Below are positions 35,235-42,544 of a stretch of DNA of 64,000 bases, one piece after another. This stretch comes from Shewanella vesiculosa. Lineage in GTDB: Bacteria > Pseudomonadota > Gammaproteobacteria > Enterobacterales > Shewanellaceae. The stretch covers positions 4,582,001 through 4,646,000 of the forward strand of contig NZ_CP073588.1 of NCBI RefSeq assembly GCF_021560015.1, written 5' to 3'. The translations under genes were made by a program, and so were the position numbers. The notes beneath the pieces are model-generated. The model had not been told where the DNA came from and did no database searches. It saw nothing but the letters and a program-made list of their open reading frames with translations. Within the stretch, counting starts at the first letter, position 1, and every line of letters starts with the position of its first letter.

Positions 35235-35828
35235 GGTGCGGTTCCTGTATGTACATCAAAACAAAGCGATTTAGTTGCGATAAGTTAATATTATCTACAC
35301 AACATCAATCTGGAATATTGGGGCCGATAGCCTTATTTATGGCTGAACTCATGCTTAACTGGGTTGATTAACGTCTTCGGATAGCTGAAAAACATTAAGC
35401 TTGAATGATACACCCAATTGAGTGCCATCGATAAGCGGCCGCGGAGTATAACAAACTTTTGTTTAAATCCTGAACTTTATCTGTGTCAAAAGAGAAGATT
35501 TTTTAGCAGGGAATAGTTTAGATGATATGGATTGATAGTCATGGCAATTACAGCACCTTAAGTGTGTGGCTGCTAACTCGTTTTTGGACAAAAACGAGCT
35601 AGAGTTAATATTCTAAAGATAATATTGTCGCATTACGATAAGTATGTTTAAGATCGGAAATACCAGCGAAACAGGAATACCTCAATCTATATTCTAATCA
35701 AAGTGCTCAACTCTGTATGCCACTATACACGTCGTTATCCTAACGCATATTGGTGGCTAACAAGGTCTTCTAGGGGGCATCTTCATACTATTTTCACCAG
35801 TGCATCAAATCCACAAAATCTAAAGCTG
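35235..35828. other. Long gene-free region between rhlE and the retron
   Basis: About 590 bases with no coding frame of note. It must hold the rhlE promoter on the minus strand. It contains a perfect 9-bp hairpin at 35577-35598 (CTCGTTTTT, loop GGAC). The part nearer the retron may be the left flank of the accessory island. No RNA gene was identified here. Confidence 0.45.
35577..35598. repeat. 9-bp hairpin upstream of the retron
   Basis: CTCGTTTTT and AAAAACGAG pair around a GGAC loop. Its left arm and loop include CGTTTTTGGAC, an 11-base sequence found again at 37688-37698 near the end of the retron gene. Possible island boundary, unproven. Confidence 0.4.
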
Positions 35829-35857
35829 TTGATATTAATAGTAAATTACTATATATT
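35829..35857 (+). promoter_or_regulatory. Sigma-70 promoter of the retron RNA
   Basis: TTGATA at 35829-35834 and TATATT at 35852-35857 are 17 bases apart. The predicted start point near 35864 coincides with the left arm of the inverted repeat that begins the retron RNA. A palindrome (ATAGTAA-A-TTACTAT, 35838-35852) fills most of the spacer and could be an operator. Confidence 0.6.
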
Positions 35858-35861
35858 TTTT

Positions 35862-35994
35862 TTGCTGGAGAGGTAGATTTCAACTTCCTATGCCATCGGA
35901 CATAGGCAATGAACAATGGCATTTTTGCCGATTAGTCTCTCTACGGTTTGATAAAGTTGGCTTACCGGGTAAAAGACAAAACCCTCTCCAGCAA
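35862..35994 (+). ncRNA. Predicted retron msr-msd RNA
   Basis: A 133-base element immediately upstream of the reverse transcriptase. Its ends are a perfect 12-bp inverted repeat: TTGCTGGAGAGG at 35862-35873 and CCTCTCCAGCAA at 35983-35994, matching the a1/a2 repeats that close retron RNAs. Inside are a stem CCTATG/CATAGG (35887-35906), an alternative pairing ATGCCAT/ATGGCAT (35890-35922) and a weaker CGGT/ACCG stem. A G three bases after a1 (35876) is a candidate for the 2'-5' branching guanosine. Folding and boundaries between msr and msd were not computed. The element is short compared with many retrons. Confidence 0.75.
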
Positions 35995-36027
35995 CATTCT
36001 CTATTTCTTGAAGTGGACCTTCCTTAT

Positions 36028-37716
36028 ATGTTTGGCAACCCAGAAGCTCTTCATGAGTGTATTGATACAAATGATCTTGCGAAGTTTTTCGGTATCAATC
36101 GAGATGAGATGCTTAGCTACTTATATTCGAAGGATATTAAATATCGAAACTTTGAAATAGATAAAAAGAATGGTAAGAAACGAAAAATTGTTGCTCCAGT
36201 AAAAAAATTAAAATTTTTACAATACAAAGTCAAGGCTGCCTTAGAACCCTACTATAAGCCCAAGAAATGTAATCATGGATTTGTTAAAGATCGTGATATT
36301 GTGACTAATGCGCAAGCGCATTTAAGAAAGGAATTTGTCCTCAACATCGATTTAGTTGATTACTTCGGCAACATAACTTTTGGTCGAGTGAAAAGATTAT
36401 TCGAAAGCAATCCTCTTAATCTAAGCCACTCAGTTGCAACCGTACTAGCTCAAATATGTTGTCACAATGGTTGTTTGCCTCAAGGTGCTCCTTCTTCACC
36501 TATTGTATCTAATATGGTTACATTCAAACTGGATAATCAACTTCGAGCTTTGGCGATAAAATCTAGCTGTTCATATTCCAGATATGCTGACGATATAACT
36601 TTCTCATTCACAAATAGAGAGCGCTCATTGCCAAAAATGATAGCTTTCTATAAGAACGAAAAGCTACAGTTAGGCAGTAGCTTAGAAAAGGTCATAGAAG
36701 AAAATGGCTTTTCTATCAATGACGATAAAACCCGTATGCAACACCGAACCCAGCGTCAGTCAGTTACGAATATCACCGTTAATGAGAAAATAAATGTAAA
36801 TAGAAGATTTATCCGATCAACCTCTGCCATGATTAACGCACTCATTAAGTACGGCCCTGCAGCTGCCGAAAAAGAACATTTTGAGAAATATCTAAAAGGT
36901 TATATACCTGCTAGACATCATATGAAGATGGCTAAGTATCCCGGAAAGATGTTTATTCAGAAAGTTAGAGGGCGGCTAAATTTTATCCGAATGGTAAGAG
37001 GCAATACATGCGATGTATGGCGTAAGATGATGTACCTATACACTGTGGCAATTGGTGCGCCAAATGAAGACTATAATATGAGCTGGTTAGAATTAGCAGC
37101 GGAATCGACTTTGGTTATCCATACCTATACAGATTCAAATATGGCTCAGGGCAGTGGATTTATTGTAGAAGATATTGGCATCATAACCAATGAACATGTT
37201 GTTCGAGGTATTACCAGTAAAAATATTAAAGATGGTCTTGAGATGCACAGATGGAACAATGAAACAGCCAAATTTTCATTTGTCGAACTGATTGGTATGG
37301 ATGAGGACATTGATCTCGCAATCTTTGAACCTTCAATACACTTAGCAACTTTCACCCCATTAAAAATCGAAAATAATCCTGACTATAGTAATGGAACAAT
37401 TGTCCATACTATCGGCTACCCTAATTATCAAAGCGGAGAAGAGCCTACATATATTACAGCGAAAATTATCGGTAAAACAAAAAGGATGCTCCAGCCAAGA
37501 ATTAAAATTGATGAGAATATTCGTCATGGGAATAGTGGTGGTGTGGTGATGAATACCGATGGGAAAGTTATAGGAGTTGTTTCAAATGGTAATGCCATAG
37601 GGGCAACCTCACAAAATGATAGCTCATTTATTCCGATCCAAACCCTCCTTGAATACCATGAAAAATTAAGGAATCTTGTTGCTCGACCGTTTTTGGACGA
37701 AGTAGACTCACTTTAG
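36028..37716 (+). CDS. Retron reverse transcriptase fused to a trypsin-like serine protease
   Basis: A 562-residue two-domain protein. The N-terminal reverse transcriptase (about 1-320) has the retron-specific NAXXH motif (NAQAH, 94-98), the first metal aspartate at D108, LPQGAPSSP at 150-158, the catalytic YADD at 186-189 and a region-Y motif VTNITVN from 246 (VTG in most retrons). The C-terminal domain (about 355-540) is an S1-type chymotrypsin/HtrA-like protease with His390 (TNEHVV), Asp429 (DIDLAIF) and Ser503 (GNSGGVV); no PDZ domain, signal peptide or membrane segment is seen. The open frame extends upstream to 35890, but that part lies in the msr-msd RNA; AAGTGGA before 36028 supports the later start. 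It is probably an anti-phage retron with the protease as effector; the target is unknown. Confidence 0.9.
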   Translation: MFGNPEALHECIDTNDLAKFFGINRDEMLSYLYSKDIKYRNFEIDKKNGKKRKIVAPVKKLKFLQYKVKAALEPYYKPKKCNHGFVKDRDIVTNAQAHLRKEFVLNIDLVDYFGNITFGRVKRLFESNPLNLSHSVATVLAQICCHNGCLPQGAPSSPIVSNMVTFKLDNQLRALAIKSSCSYSRYADDITFSFTNRERSLPKMIAFYKNEKLQLGSSLEKVIEENGFSINDDKTRMQHRTQRQSVTNITVNEKINVNRRFIRSTSAMINALIKYGPAAAEKEHFEKYLKGYIPARHHMKMAKYPGKMFIQKVRGRLNFIRMVRGNTCDVWRKMMYLYTVAIGAPNEDYNMSWLELAAESTLVIHTYTDSNMAQGSGFIVEDIGIITNEHVVRGITSKNIKDGLEMHRWNNETAKFSFVELIGMDEDIDLAIFEPSIHLATFTPLKIENNPDYSNGTIVHTIGYPNYQSGEEPTYITAKIIGKTKRMLQPRIKIDENIRHGNSGGVVMNTDGKVIGVVSNGNAIGATSQNDSSFIPIQTLLEYHEKLRNLVARPFLDEVDSL

Positions 37717-38022
37717 GACGGCCAGCGGTTTCTCCGATGGCAACCGCATCATTGGCGTCATTTCTATTACAACCAGCATGGCTTTCACCATTCTGGCGGG
37801 GATAATCTTGACGGTATGACCGAGCTTTTCGATAGTGCGCACCCAGTAATTAGCACTGTAACAAGCTTCCATCACCACTGACGTTGGTTCGCATTGCCTA
37901 AGGGTATTGAGCAATGCCGAACGGTTGATTTTACGATTAAAAGCAATGGTATTGTCATGATTGAAGGCCGCCACTTGGAAGACAGTTTTTGCCAAATCAA
38001 TGCTGATAAGTTTATAGTTCAT
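37710..38022 (-). pseudogene. IS110 family transposase, truncated and frameshifted
   Basis: The N-terminal 90 or so residues of an IS110 transposase are visible: MNYKLISIDLAKTVFQVA (with the first catalytic Asp of the DEDD/RuvC-like domain), then SVVMEACYSANYW and KIIPARMVKAMLV. At about 37775 one base is missing, after which the expected GNRNDANDAVAIGETAGRP continues in another frame. The gene then breaks off at about 37710-37716, overlapping the last bases of the retron coding region. GAGGTGA upstream supports a start at 38022. It is a dead remnant. Confidence 0.85.
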
Positions 38023-38155
38023 ATCGGTCACCTCGAGTCAGATTTTGTGCACCTAAATCATGGCACATTGCGATGGCGAGACCGAGGTAACCATCTCAGC
38101 AGGCATAACTTATGAACTATCCAAAAACCTTTCACATTAGATTTTTATAGCCAAA
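38023..38155 (-). mobile_element. Remnant of the IS110 left end
   Basis: About 130 bases upstream of the transposase remnant, with no gene. In the IS110 group the non-coding DNA before the transposase encodes the bridge RNA. Short pairings such as GAGATGG and a CCATCGC-containing stretch are compatible with a structured RNA, but boundaries and folding are not established. Confidence 0.35.
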
Positions 38156-38585
38156 GCTATATTCGGCAACTTGCCTCTTGAGCTGCGAAACACGTTTTGG
38201 GGCATAAATGATTTGCATACCTTGCTTGTAATTGGCGTGATTCAACTCTGAACTTGAGGGCGTTGAAGAAAATAGCGTGAAGCTCACATGGATGTGAGCT
38301 TAGCTTTCGCGGTACAGGATGTACCATCGGAAGCGTTAGCATTTTCGAATAAGGCCGAAGCAGGTTTCAAATGAAGTTAAAAGCTGGATCAATCCCCATG
38401 GCGACCTTTTCGCAGCTGTTGTTTTGTAAATAGCGAAAATGTTGCGGGGCGGCTGGGAGTTCCAAGAGGGAATAGCCGTTGATTTCCTCTTGGTCTGGTG
38501 TGGGCGAAGCACCACGACGTTAGTGGCCGCAGGTCATAGCCTAACCAACGTTGGGGTAAAACCAAGTTAGCTTATATGGTTGTTG
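38156..38585. repeat. Hairpin-rich intergenic element with GGA loops
   Basis: A gene-free stretch with several clean hairpins: AAGCTCACA/TGTGAGCTT at 38279-38300 with loop TGGA, GGTACA/TGTACC at 38311-38325 with loop GGA, and a GTC-TGGTG/CACCA-GAC stem around 38494-38520. From memory similar hairpin strings recur in Shewanella and Vibrio intergenic DNA, so this may be a dispersed repeat. The short minus-strand frame across it is not credible as a gene. Confidence 0.5.
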
Positions 38586-38593
38586 AAAACAAA

Positions 38594-38618
38594 AAGGCCA
38601 GCCTCTATGGCTGGCCTT
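38594..38618 (-). terminator. Intrinsic terminator of the purine permease gene
   Basis: AAGGCCAGCC and GGCTGGCCTT pair around a 5-base loop, followed on the minus strand by T-rich sequence. It lies 34 bases after the stop codon. Confidence 0.85.
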
Positions 38619-38651
38619 AATATTGAATTTATAATTGAGTTTACAATTGGG

Positions 38652-40010
38652 TTAAATCGCCCAGCCACCCATGTAGAAAGCGACTAAACCTAGGGTGATT
38701 AAGATGACCCCAAGTCGCAGTTTACGCCACTCGCCGCTACATATACGGCCAATAACTAAGGTAACAAAGCCAAGCATAATCCCAGTAACGATATTACAGC
38801 TTAAAATGATAAACACCGCGCAGGTTAGGCCCGCCATTGCATCGACTTTATCGTCAAAATCAAGCTTGGTGACATTGCTTAACATCAATAAGCCAACATA
38901 CATAAGCGCAGGAGCTGTTGCATAAGCGGGTACCAAAAAGCTTAACGGCGCTAAGAACATCATCATCAAAAATAACAAGCCAACGATGGTTGCCGTTAGG
39001 CCGGTTTTGCCACCTGCTGCGGTTCCAGCTGCTGATTCAATATAAACCGCTGCTGGGGCGCCGCCGACCACGCCAGCAAAAATACTGCTGACTGAGTCTG
39101 ATGTCAGTGCTTTACCACCGCCGACAATATTGTCGTTATCATCGAGAAGTTCCGCTTGTCCGGCAACTGCTCGAATCGTGCCTGTGGCATCGAAAATGGC
39201 GGTCATCACCAATGCCAATACAATCGGCAGTACTACTGGATTCAGTGCGCCCATAATATCGAGTTGACCAATCAGCGATGTATCAGACATTAAGTCCGGC
39301 AAAGCAAATAGCCCTTGATAAGTCACGCTTGGATCAAATATTAACCCAAAAATCGATAGTCCGACTATTACCAATAATATGCCACCTGGTGTGCCTCGGC
39401 GCTCAAGCCCTATGGTCATAGCAAGACCAATAATCGTTGCGATAACCGGAAAACTATTAATATCACCAAGCTTTACGGGTAAACCGGCATCGTTTGATAC
39501 AATCAATTTAACGCTATTGGTTGCGATAAGGAGTAAAAACAGACCAATACCAATTCCCGTACCGTGAGCGATACCGGTTGGCAGGTTAGTGAGCACCCAT
39601 TGACGGATCCCTGTGACACTCACAAGTGTAAATACGATACCCATCAGGAAAATAGCGCCAAGAGTCACTGGAATCGATATTCCCTGTCCCAGCACCATGC
39701 TAAATGCAGTAAATGCGGTGAGTGATATTGCACACCCTATGGCCATAGGTAAATTAGCCCATAGTCCCATGAGCAATGAACCAAACGCGGCAATTAAACA
39801 AGTGGCGATAAATACAGCAGCAGGATCAAACCCTGCCGCGCCGAGCATGTTTGGCACCACAATCACCGAATAAACCATCGCTAAAAACGTTGTTAAGCCA
39901 GCAATGACTTCACGTTTTAAGGTACTACCTCGGGCAGATATATTGAAATAACGATCCAAAAATGAATCAGAAGCGGCGGTCGAGCTAGAGAGAGTCTGTT
40001 CAGACTTCAT
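38652..40010 (-). CDS. NCS2 family purine permease (AzgA/GhxP type)
   Basis: A 452-residue inner membrane protein with about 13 hydrophobic segments. It has the hallmark N-terminus of the adenine/guanine/hypoxanthine branch ([31 protein letters not shown]), the GIGIGLFL segment and the [18 protein letters not shown] loop. This branch (E. coli AdeP, GhxP) imports purine bases with protons. Specificity between adenine and guanine/hypoxanthine cannot be read here. It is a single-gene unit with a 745-base upstream gap. Confidence 0.87.
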
Positions 40011-40683
40011 AGTGATTATACCTTTTGATCTCTTAAATTATGAGTTAACCAATGGTCATTCATTGGCGACACGGCTATGGCAGGTAGAGCCCTAAACAAG
40101 AAACACTTAGGTGAGAGATCCACTTGGCGCATATAGCGTTAGTGACCTGCGAGTATTGTGCTAAACAACTTTGTTAAACACATGTCTGGTAAAATTTACT
40201 CTTACCAACATAGCCTTTGTTGGCGCGGAGTTTACAACAATCGACAATGCGGAAATAGGAAGCGGCTAACATTTTTGTTATATAGGCAAAAACGCACTAA
40301 AAACAGATTGTTTTGTATACCTCACAATAAAATTAACTCGCTGCAGTTATAACCCTTTTGAGCATTTATCACTAATAACGGATCGCCGCCCTTGGTATGG
40401 CAATTTAATACCATTATTTAGTAATAGTGGCGTTTGCCAAGAATAGGCAAATTAACCGACGTGAGTTCAAGCTCGACGTTGGCAACATTATGCTGTTATT
40501 GCGCATTATCGGTGTAGAGATGACAGTGACGTCTTACGATCCAAACGGGTTAATACATGTATACAGGTTAACTCATGGTAAATCTGACGATAAATATGCT
40601 TGTGATGATGGGGGAAATATTGCCGCTGATGTCGTGCCTTAGCGTGCTATGACCTAGTTTGAACTTAATGGTATTCCACTAAA
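40011..40683. other. Long intergenic region upstream of the purine permease
   Basis: About 670 bases with no gene I can support. Two plus-strand frames (64 and 71 codons) lack ribosome sites and family features. I looked for a purine riboswitch and for a PurR box by eye and found neither. A terminator follows at 40684. Confidence 0.4.
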
Positions 40684-40716
40684 AGGGCTTTAGACGAGTT
40701 ATTCGTCTAAAGCCCT
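40684..40716 (-). terminator. Intrinsic terminator of the aminopeptidase P gene
   Basis: A perfect 14-bp stem (AGGGCTTTAGACGA and its complement) with loop GTTAT, followed on the minus strand by TTTT. It lies 40 bases after the stop codon. Confidence 0.85.
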
Positions 40717-40755
40717 ATATTCAGTGCTCGCGCGTTATGTTGTATTGGTTAACGC

Positions 40756-42544
40756 TTAAATCGCAGCAGTTACTTTATTGAGCCAAGTTAACTCATCACC
40801 TTGCATTAATGGCGCTAAGGTTTGATGCACTTTTTGCTGATATTGATTAAACCAATTGACTTCAAAATCAGTTAACAATGACTTATCAATTAAGCGTGCA
40901 TCCATTGGAATATGAGTTAACACATCAAACTCATACATTTCACGCTCTGCACCCGTTAGGGCTTGGCAATGCTGCACTGTAACCAGGTTTTCGATACGAA
41001 TACCAAAACCGTCGGCGCGATAATAACCAGGCTCATTGGACAATACCATGCCCGGCAGTAATGCCACGCCATTGACGTTTTTGCCAATACGCTGCGGGCC
41101 TTCGTGAACACTTAAAAAGTGACCGACACCATGGCCAGTACCATGGTCATAATCAAAACCATGCTGCCATAAATACTGACGAGCAAACGCATCGAGTTGT
41201 TGACCTGAAGTGCCTTTAGGGAAACGGGTAGTATCAAGGGCAATATGACCTTTTAATACCAGCGTGACCATTTTCCCTCTGCTCATCGGTCACCTTGCCA
41301 ATGGCGATGGTGCGAGTGACGTCTGTGGTGCCATCTAAATATTGCGCGCCAGAATCGACCAAATAAATGCTGTTCATGGTCATGGTGCTTGGCGTGCCAT
41401 TATTGTGGTTGTAATGGCACATAGCGGCATTGGCGCCGGTAGCTGAAATGGTGTCAAAGCTTGGTTCGCGATACAGCGGGTCTTGTAATCTAAAGCTTTC
41501 TAATTTGTCAGCCAGTTGGGCTTCATCATGCATGATGTTTTGCTCAACTTGGTTGTCTAACCAGGCTAAAAAGCGGCTCACTGCTGCACCATCACGGATA
41601 TGACATGCACGCATACCGGCTAATTCGGCGCTATTTTTTTGTGCTTTAGGTAATGCAACAGGGTCACTACCTACAATCAGCTTTGCGCCAGCCTTTTGTG
41701 CGAGTAGTTGCGAGTATGCGTTAGCAGAATGTGGGTCAGCTAATAACTTAACCCCCTTCATTTGTGCCAACACAGAAGCTAGCTCTGCTTCATCTTTAAA
41801 GCTCACGCCAGTACCAACGTGCGCGGCAATATTTTGCGGCACTTTGGCTAAATCGGTAAAAAAGGTCATGTCGCCATTGGTTGATAATAATCCACAACCA
41901 AGAATGACGGGGAAGCGTGGTACATCATTACCACGGATATTGAGTAGCCAACAGCATGAGTCTAATGCTGCAATTAGAGCGACGTCGGCACCTTGTTTTT
42001 TAACCAGCACACCAATTTGTTGACGTTTCTCAACGCTATTACGTCCAGCTCCTTGATGACTGAATAGCGTCATGGTTGATGCTGACGGTGCAGGGCGATC
42101 TAACCAACTTATATCGATTGGGTTGTTATCTACGTCGACGAGATTGATGTCGGCTTTATCAAATTGTGCTTTAGTTTGTTGATACCAAGCTAGGGTGTGT
42201 AAACGGCTATCGATACCGACACTCGCGCCAGCAGGTAACGTGTCAATTAACCAGTCAATTTGTGGATCGTCATACAGACTTAAATATTCAAACAAGTTAC
42301 CGTCTACTTGTTGACGCACTTGCACTGTGTAACGGCCGTCAGTAAATATTGCCGCGCGGTCTTTTAGCACAATAGCCATGCCAGCAGAACCGGTAAAGCC
42401 AGTGGCCCAATGTAAACGCTCATTACGGGCAGGTACGTATTCACCTAAATATTCGTCAGCGCGGGGAATGATGAATGCATCTATTTGGTTTACTTCAAGC
42501 TGCTGGCGAATGGCGCTAATGCGCGTAGCAATAATATTGGACAT
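40756..42544 (-). pseudogene. Xaa-Pro aminopeptidase (M24B, three-domain type), frameshifted
   Basis: Two overlapping minus-strand frames together make one M24B aminopeptidase P of about 595 residues, the size of the eukaryote-like long form. The N-terminal creatinase-like domains start MSNIIATRISAIRQQLEVNQ; the pita-bread fold carries metal ligands in GTTDVTRT, TGHGVGH, LSNEPG and RIENL. The break is at 41271-41277, where one extra base (in TTTT or CCC on the plus strand) shifts the frame between TDEQR and MVTLVLKGH. Removing it restores an uninterrupted gene. The enzyme removes N-terminal residues before proline. True pseudogene or sequence error is undecided. Confidence 0.85.

Follow-up and report, generated by a model that had tools for sequence, protein, structure and literature searches.

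A predicted type XI retron in Shewanella vesiculosa with a trypsin-like protease fused to its reverse transcriptase

Organization of the locus

The window, which is the whole 64-kb stretch of Shewanella vesiculosa DNA analysed here, carries on its + strand a promoter-like site, a 133-nucleotide (nt) element and an open reading frame (ORF) for a reverse transcriptase (RT)–protease fusion, in that order. The features are as follows.

35829–35857, + strand: sigma-70-like promoter, TTGATA, 17 nt, TATATT, assigned from consensus match alone and ending 4 nt 5′ of the RNA element
35862–35994, + strand: retron msr-msd-type non-coding RNA, 133 nt, from its terminal inverted repeat, its fold and a model of 11 relatives
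35862–35873, + strand: arm a1, TTGCTGGAGAGG, of the perfect 12-bp terminal inverted repeat
35876, + strand: candidate priming (branch) guanosine in TAGA, base 3 past a1, proposed from position
35887–35906, + strand: msr hairpin CCTATG...CATAGG, 35887–35892 pairing with 35901–35906 (RNAalifold, 12 sequences)
35918–35929, + strand: second small hairpin, GGCA-TTTT-TGCC, in the predicted fold, most evident in the window, L005 and L116
35971–35981, + strand: conserved AAAAGACAAAA motif 5′ of a2, from alignments of relatives
35983–35994, + strand: arm a2, CCTCTCCAGCAA, complementary to a1, of the perfect 12-bp terminal inverted repeat
36028–37716, + strand: RT–protease fusion, 562 residues, PADLOC RT-Protease_XI E 7e-179 over residues 6–545
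36028–37062, + strand: retron RT domain, about residues 1–345, with NAXXH at 36307–36321, YADD at 36583–36594 and VTN at 36763–36771
37081–37683, + strand: trypsin/HtrA-like protease domain, about residues 352–552, with His390 at 37195–37197, Asp429 at 37312–37314 and Ser503 at 37534–37536

GC content is 35–38% along the element against 40–48% in the surroundings. The stretch from the DEAD-box helicase gene to an aminopeptidase-like gene (35235–40755) is variable within the genus. Both flanking genes are present in 16 of 17 same-genus genomes; in 8 of these 16 the gap from the helicase to the next gene is under 500 bp, and in the remaining 8 other genes fill it. The gene beyond the helicase, in the window and in relatives, is one that we take to be aminopeptidase P. 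Its window copy (40756–42544, − strand) is split into two overlapping ORFs of 176 and 436 residues and looks frame-shifted; in the same-genus relative L210 it is one ORF of 603 residues. Beside the helicase gene, 35434–35481 includes 45–49 bp conserved at 82–88% identity in three relatives and 26 bp in a fourth. On the − strand, 37708–38031 holds a shortened IS110-type transposase gene, of which the N-terminal part remains; the end of its ORF overlaps the final bases of the retron gene.

The reverse transcriptase–protease fusion

The best-fitting start of the fusion is 36028, from which relatives align. Upstream of this start the frame stays open into the RNA element, with a mechanical ORF start at 35890, and the nearest database relative, P0001, has a listed length of 608 residues. 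Numbered from 36028, NAXXH lies at residues 94–98, YADD at 186–189 and the protease triad at His390, Asp429 and Ser503, exactly as the original prediction had placed them. In an alignment of 39 rows, the window and 38 relatives, N94, A95, H98, Y186, D188, D189 and the triad are invariant, and residue 187 is A or V. The retron VTG triplet that starts region Y reads VTN here (residues 246–248), its V and T invariant in the 39 rows; VTG is present in 14 of 16 validated retron RTs, with substitutions in two (PMC6868368).

Retron models (RT-Protease_XI) score 594 bits on the RT versus 72 bits for the group II intron maturase model, whose cut-off is 300; these values bear out the earlier assignment to retrons and led us to reject a group II intron identity. 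No model of diversity-generating retroelements (DGRs) was among the matches listed in profile searches of the protein, and the tree described below was built without a DGR reference. The protease part by itself matches RT-Protease_XI (E 1.6e-38). This PADLOC label, a name given to relatives that makes no statement of tested function, can rest on the RT alone, because L020, with no recognisable protease, also has RT-Protease_XI as its best match (E 5.3e-132, RT part only). A structure model, of the kind that the prediction had proposed as a check, places the protease directly behind the RT after a short linker. The Pfam matches of the fusion protein include no PDZ domain, and fusion to an RT distinguishes this protease from HtrA/Deg proteases.

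The upstream RNA

The 133-nt element has a predicted folding energy of −44.9 kcal/mol (z −4.09 versus shuffles), and none of 200 shuffles folds as well. The perfect 12-bp inverted repeat reported at its ends is present and scores 31; shuffles average 19.8 and 0 of 60 are as high, the search range having been fixed after the repeat positions were known. We applied the repeat test to 43 unique loci with RT and protease, the window included, after dropping the duplicates L001, L085, L105, L106, L108 and L123; L199, which has one stop in its RT frame, was entered for its RNA only. At 33 of the 43, no more than 1 of 60 shuffles equalled the best upstream repeat; the loci are not independent, since the alphaproteobacterial ones include several near-copies. 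The test failed at the other 10, four of which (L197, L110, L111 and L007) fall in the close group of 12. Within this group the sequences of a1 and a2 vary and their complementarity is kept, and the arms enclose a conserved ATTTAAC-type stretch and an AAAAGA(G/C)AAAA-type motif 5′ of a2. The msr hairpin has six pairs, and in four of them both partners differ in one or more of the sequences (RNAalifold, 12 sequences).

A covariance model built from 11 relatives with the window excluded (R2) retrieves 35866–35991 from the 64 kb at E 3.6e-7, the next match being at E 3.6; E-values from this tool are rough. A 12-sequence model (R1) is no independent test of the window, since the window is among its sequences, and both models score mainly sequence because each holds only six base pairs. 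R1 gave no match at distant RT–protease genes among its 57 sources, and its three extra matches are at chance level (E 3.6–4.8), one of them, in L015, sitting at the RT frame start. Covariance modelling, suggested at the outset for close homologues, thus recovered the window and none of the distant loci: conservation of the sequence motifs is a trait of the close clade, and the repeat one of the wider family. Rfam returned no match at gathering scores, meaning only that no curated family fits.

In retrons, the priming guanosine is described as lying within or just past a1, mostly in TAGC and, in Eco2, in CAGA (PMC6868368). The window has TAGA at this place, making G35876 a candidate priming guanosine by position. 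Of 12 close loci, 9 carry a G either in the final base of a1 or in the following four; L007, L117 and L118 do not, L007 having one a base further inside a1. The type XI RNAs L117:7796-7936 and L118:6258-6401, on P2-like prophages, show no G in the 22 bases inspected. Sen1 is one retron described without an apparent priming guanosine (PMC6868368). On the retron model, the AAAAGACAAAA motif at 35971–35981 would be the template for the first msDNA bases.

The predicted promoter, TTGATA-17-TATATT, does sit at 35829–35857, and its position just 5′ of the repeat has p 0.01 versus simple base shuffles, although the region as a whole has no excess of promoter-like sites (9 versus a shuffle mean of 11.0). 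Over 38 of the 43 loci, a promoter before the repeat gives Fisher's p 1.6e-4, a value that is overstated because the loci are related. The five omitted loci (L008, L032, L033, L039 and L059) have no accepted repeat near the start; L039 has a significant repeat, but 121 nt from it.

Identity and known relatives

The locus therefore combines an RT of retron lineage carrying NAXXH and YADD, a structured upstream RNA whose complementary a1 and a2 ends are kept in relatives, and a trypsin-like protease in the same single ORF with RT-Protease_XI as best match, and is almost certainly a type XI retron. Type XI is already catalogued (PADLOC RT-Protease_XI), with the same order of RT then trypsin-like protease in one ORF, near full-length match and no difference in kind that we could find; the locus is a further example. 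The statement in the original prediction that surveys include RT–protease architectures was accurate: PMC12405507 names Toprim, TIR and protease domains as fusion partners of retron RTs, proteases appear among retron effector genes in PMC8867640, and Trypsin_2 is listed among domains near RT genes in PMC8934634. The literature searched, with coverage partial enough to make any absence weak, yielded no substrate, mechanism, structure or phage assay for an RT–protease retron.

The nearest solved structure is that of Retron-Eco2 (Ec67), in which the effector is likewise fused behind the RT but is a Toprim RNase, whereas that of the locus is a protease (PMC12405507). RT-TIR retrons of type XII, the PADLOC runner-up (RT only, E 1.4e-116), also carry their effector behind the RT, in their case a TIR domain.

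On a quick tree, from which all tree figures here are taken, the window falls within a 10-row RT–protease clade with support 99. The protease label, which was also given to L038 and L114, changes ten times on this tree, and a single origin is not rejected (p-AU 0.067). The tree is rooted on L003, L099 and L104, presumably group II-type RTs of same-genus genomes. Related RTs bear Toprim- or TIR-like tails; these labels were assigned by eye, and L035 was confirmed as RT-TIR_XII. A 'REase-like' tail assigned by eye to L020 and L029 found no confirmation in Pfam. Other RTs of the same family are fused to Mrr_cat, an Mrr-type restriction endonuclease domain (L034:5932-7536 and L041:2326-3903), or to the Schlafen domain SLFN_AlbA_2 (L013:5288-6901). 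Toprim-, TIR-, Mrr- and Schlafen-type domains at the equal position on neighbouring branches suggest one sensor with exchangeable effectors.

Distribution and neighbourhood

RT and HtrA domains are common, and a loose family search matches nearly everywhere (59 of 60 relatives and 12 of 14 control genomes), so our genome counts use only matches at E 1e-100 or better. At that cut-off 2 of 117 genomes of the genus matched: the window's own genome and another in which the tail looks like TIR; this sample, own genome included, contained no additional RT–protease. Sampling of the order gave 3 of 394 (own, G186 and G130, the last with a TIR-like tail) and sampling of the class 3 of 369 (own, G543, and G455, whose frame is interrupted by a stop), mostly with three candidates scored per genome in both. 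The family of G186 yielded 1 of 150, G186 itself, and the genus of G130 1 of 3. Distribution is sporadic.

A close-protein scan of viral contigs gave no match, and an alignment-based scan gave 80 loci; relatives are carried by plasmids as well as by predicted viral contigs. In L117 and L118, prophages of P2-like look, the relative is flanked by a gpA-type replication gene on one side and by portal/terminase genes on the other (PHROG scan for L117 only), and P2-like phages are described as having an anti-phage hotspot adjoining cos (PMC9122126). A plasmid relative adjoins genes annotated as ATP-dependent endonuclease and UvrD helicase. The plasmid RT–protease gene at L114:5962-8607 has its 3′ end overlapped by an IS3-family transposase gene. 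The viral-contig, plasmid and hotspot settings support a defence role, and the element is probably an anti-virus defence.

Among 533 neighbour ORFs (at least 70 residues, within 6 kb) at 42 loci, L199 being excluded and some contigs ending within 6 kb, the largest recurring family is found at 4 loci, with two members annotated as recombinases, and the next at 3. Families were defined by BLAST at 1e-4, which would miss distant kin. With the largest family in just 4 of 42 loci, no substrate or partner is seen travelling with the gene.

A proposed guarded protease

Read from sequence and predicted structure, the locus comprises a retron RT, an HtrA-like protease with an intact triad and a conserved RNA whose ends are complementary; no partner gene commonly recurs beside it in relatives, and the protease is supported as a fused, built-in effector. 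This part of the original prediction holds; its 'tripartite' system reduces to an RNA and one two-domain protein, as in Eco2. We propose that the locus acts as a guarded protease, a two-component anti-phage switch of one RNA and one fusion protein, and give this reading a probability of roughly two in three. Counting against it are the limits of the PADLOC label, the 10 loci at which the repeat test failed, the lack of R1 matches at distant RT–protease genes, the VTN triplet, the absence of an Rfam match, and a sequence that gives no pointer to a substrate and no sign of inhibition by msDNA.

The model carries the logic of Eco2 over to a protease effector. In Eco2 the effector projects from the thumb of the RT, and msDNA is proposed to hold the assembly inhibited; published work describes the msDNA-bound complex as inhibiting itself and implicates phage DenB as the trigger (PMC12405507). 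By analogy, a transcript from near 35864 would fold via a1 and a2, and the RT would prime at or near G35876, copy the RNA into msDNA, moving backwards from a2, and remain bound to its own product. The RT–msDNA complex would then occlude or distort the protease site until a phage nuclease, a DNA-binding protein or a similar insult removed or rearranged the msDNA, and the freed protease would cut a protein of host or phage whose gene lies elsewhere, stopping the infected cell. A more specific version is tentative, at slightly below even odds: a stand-alone proteolytic retron in which the RNA–DNA hybrid inhibits the HtrA-like protease, phage damage frees it onto a cellular protein encoded elsewhere, and L117 and L118 are primed from a non-usual or distant base.

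Alternatively, the protease may be a signalling enzyme that, instead of stopping the cell by itself, switches on a distinct pro-toxin in trans, whose gene would lie at another place in the genome. Trypsin-like proteases serve anti-phage immunity, as proposed here, in pairs with MBL-type nucleases, which they activate in Hachiman (HamMAB) and AVAST, and such pairs also occur in Lamassu and DRT (PMC12799240); the protease domain of the locus matches HamA1 weakly (E 4.4e-4) and the candidate defence family PDC-M35A better (E 4.8e-11). In those systems, however, the protease is N-terminal and the separate nuclease gene typically lies just upstream (PMC12799240), whereas here the protease is C-terminal and the + strand from 35235 to the RT frame has no ORF of at least 80 residues, on which grounds we rejected an MBL nuclease–protease pair as the identity of the locus. 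Nor does any neighbour family turn up at more than 4 of 42 loci, and we regard pro-toxin activation as unlikely.

The lack of a commonly linked partner gene, and sporadic carriage that includes prophages and plasmids and would suit a self-contained weapon, fit a second alternative, in which the protease cuts a phage protein directly (capsid, early protein or anti-defence factor) and stops infection without host death. The published account of retrons, however, is that they kill infected hosts and thereby protect the population (PMC12548924), and a trypsin-like fold alone gives no preference for a phage target, so that we judge direct attack on the phage quite improbable. That the protease is regulatory or self-processing, splitting from the RT or turning over the complex while msDNA or RT activity acts on the phage, would agree with its modelled place directly behind the RT on a short linker, but is very improbable given the Toprim-, TIR-, Mrr- and Schlafen-type domains in the equivalent place on related RTs, which look like exchangeable effectors.

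For the guarded protease, the locus offers a compact test case of about 1.9 kb, with RNA boundaries mapped and catalytic residues named, and the type XI RNA it carries is definable by comparison with relatives. The substrate, once found, would reveal whether a retron can act by proteolysis. The stand-alone version, if true, would parallel in bacteria the cell death that proteases trigger, with a nucleic acid serving as the inhibitor.
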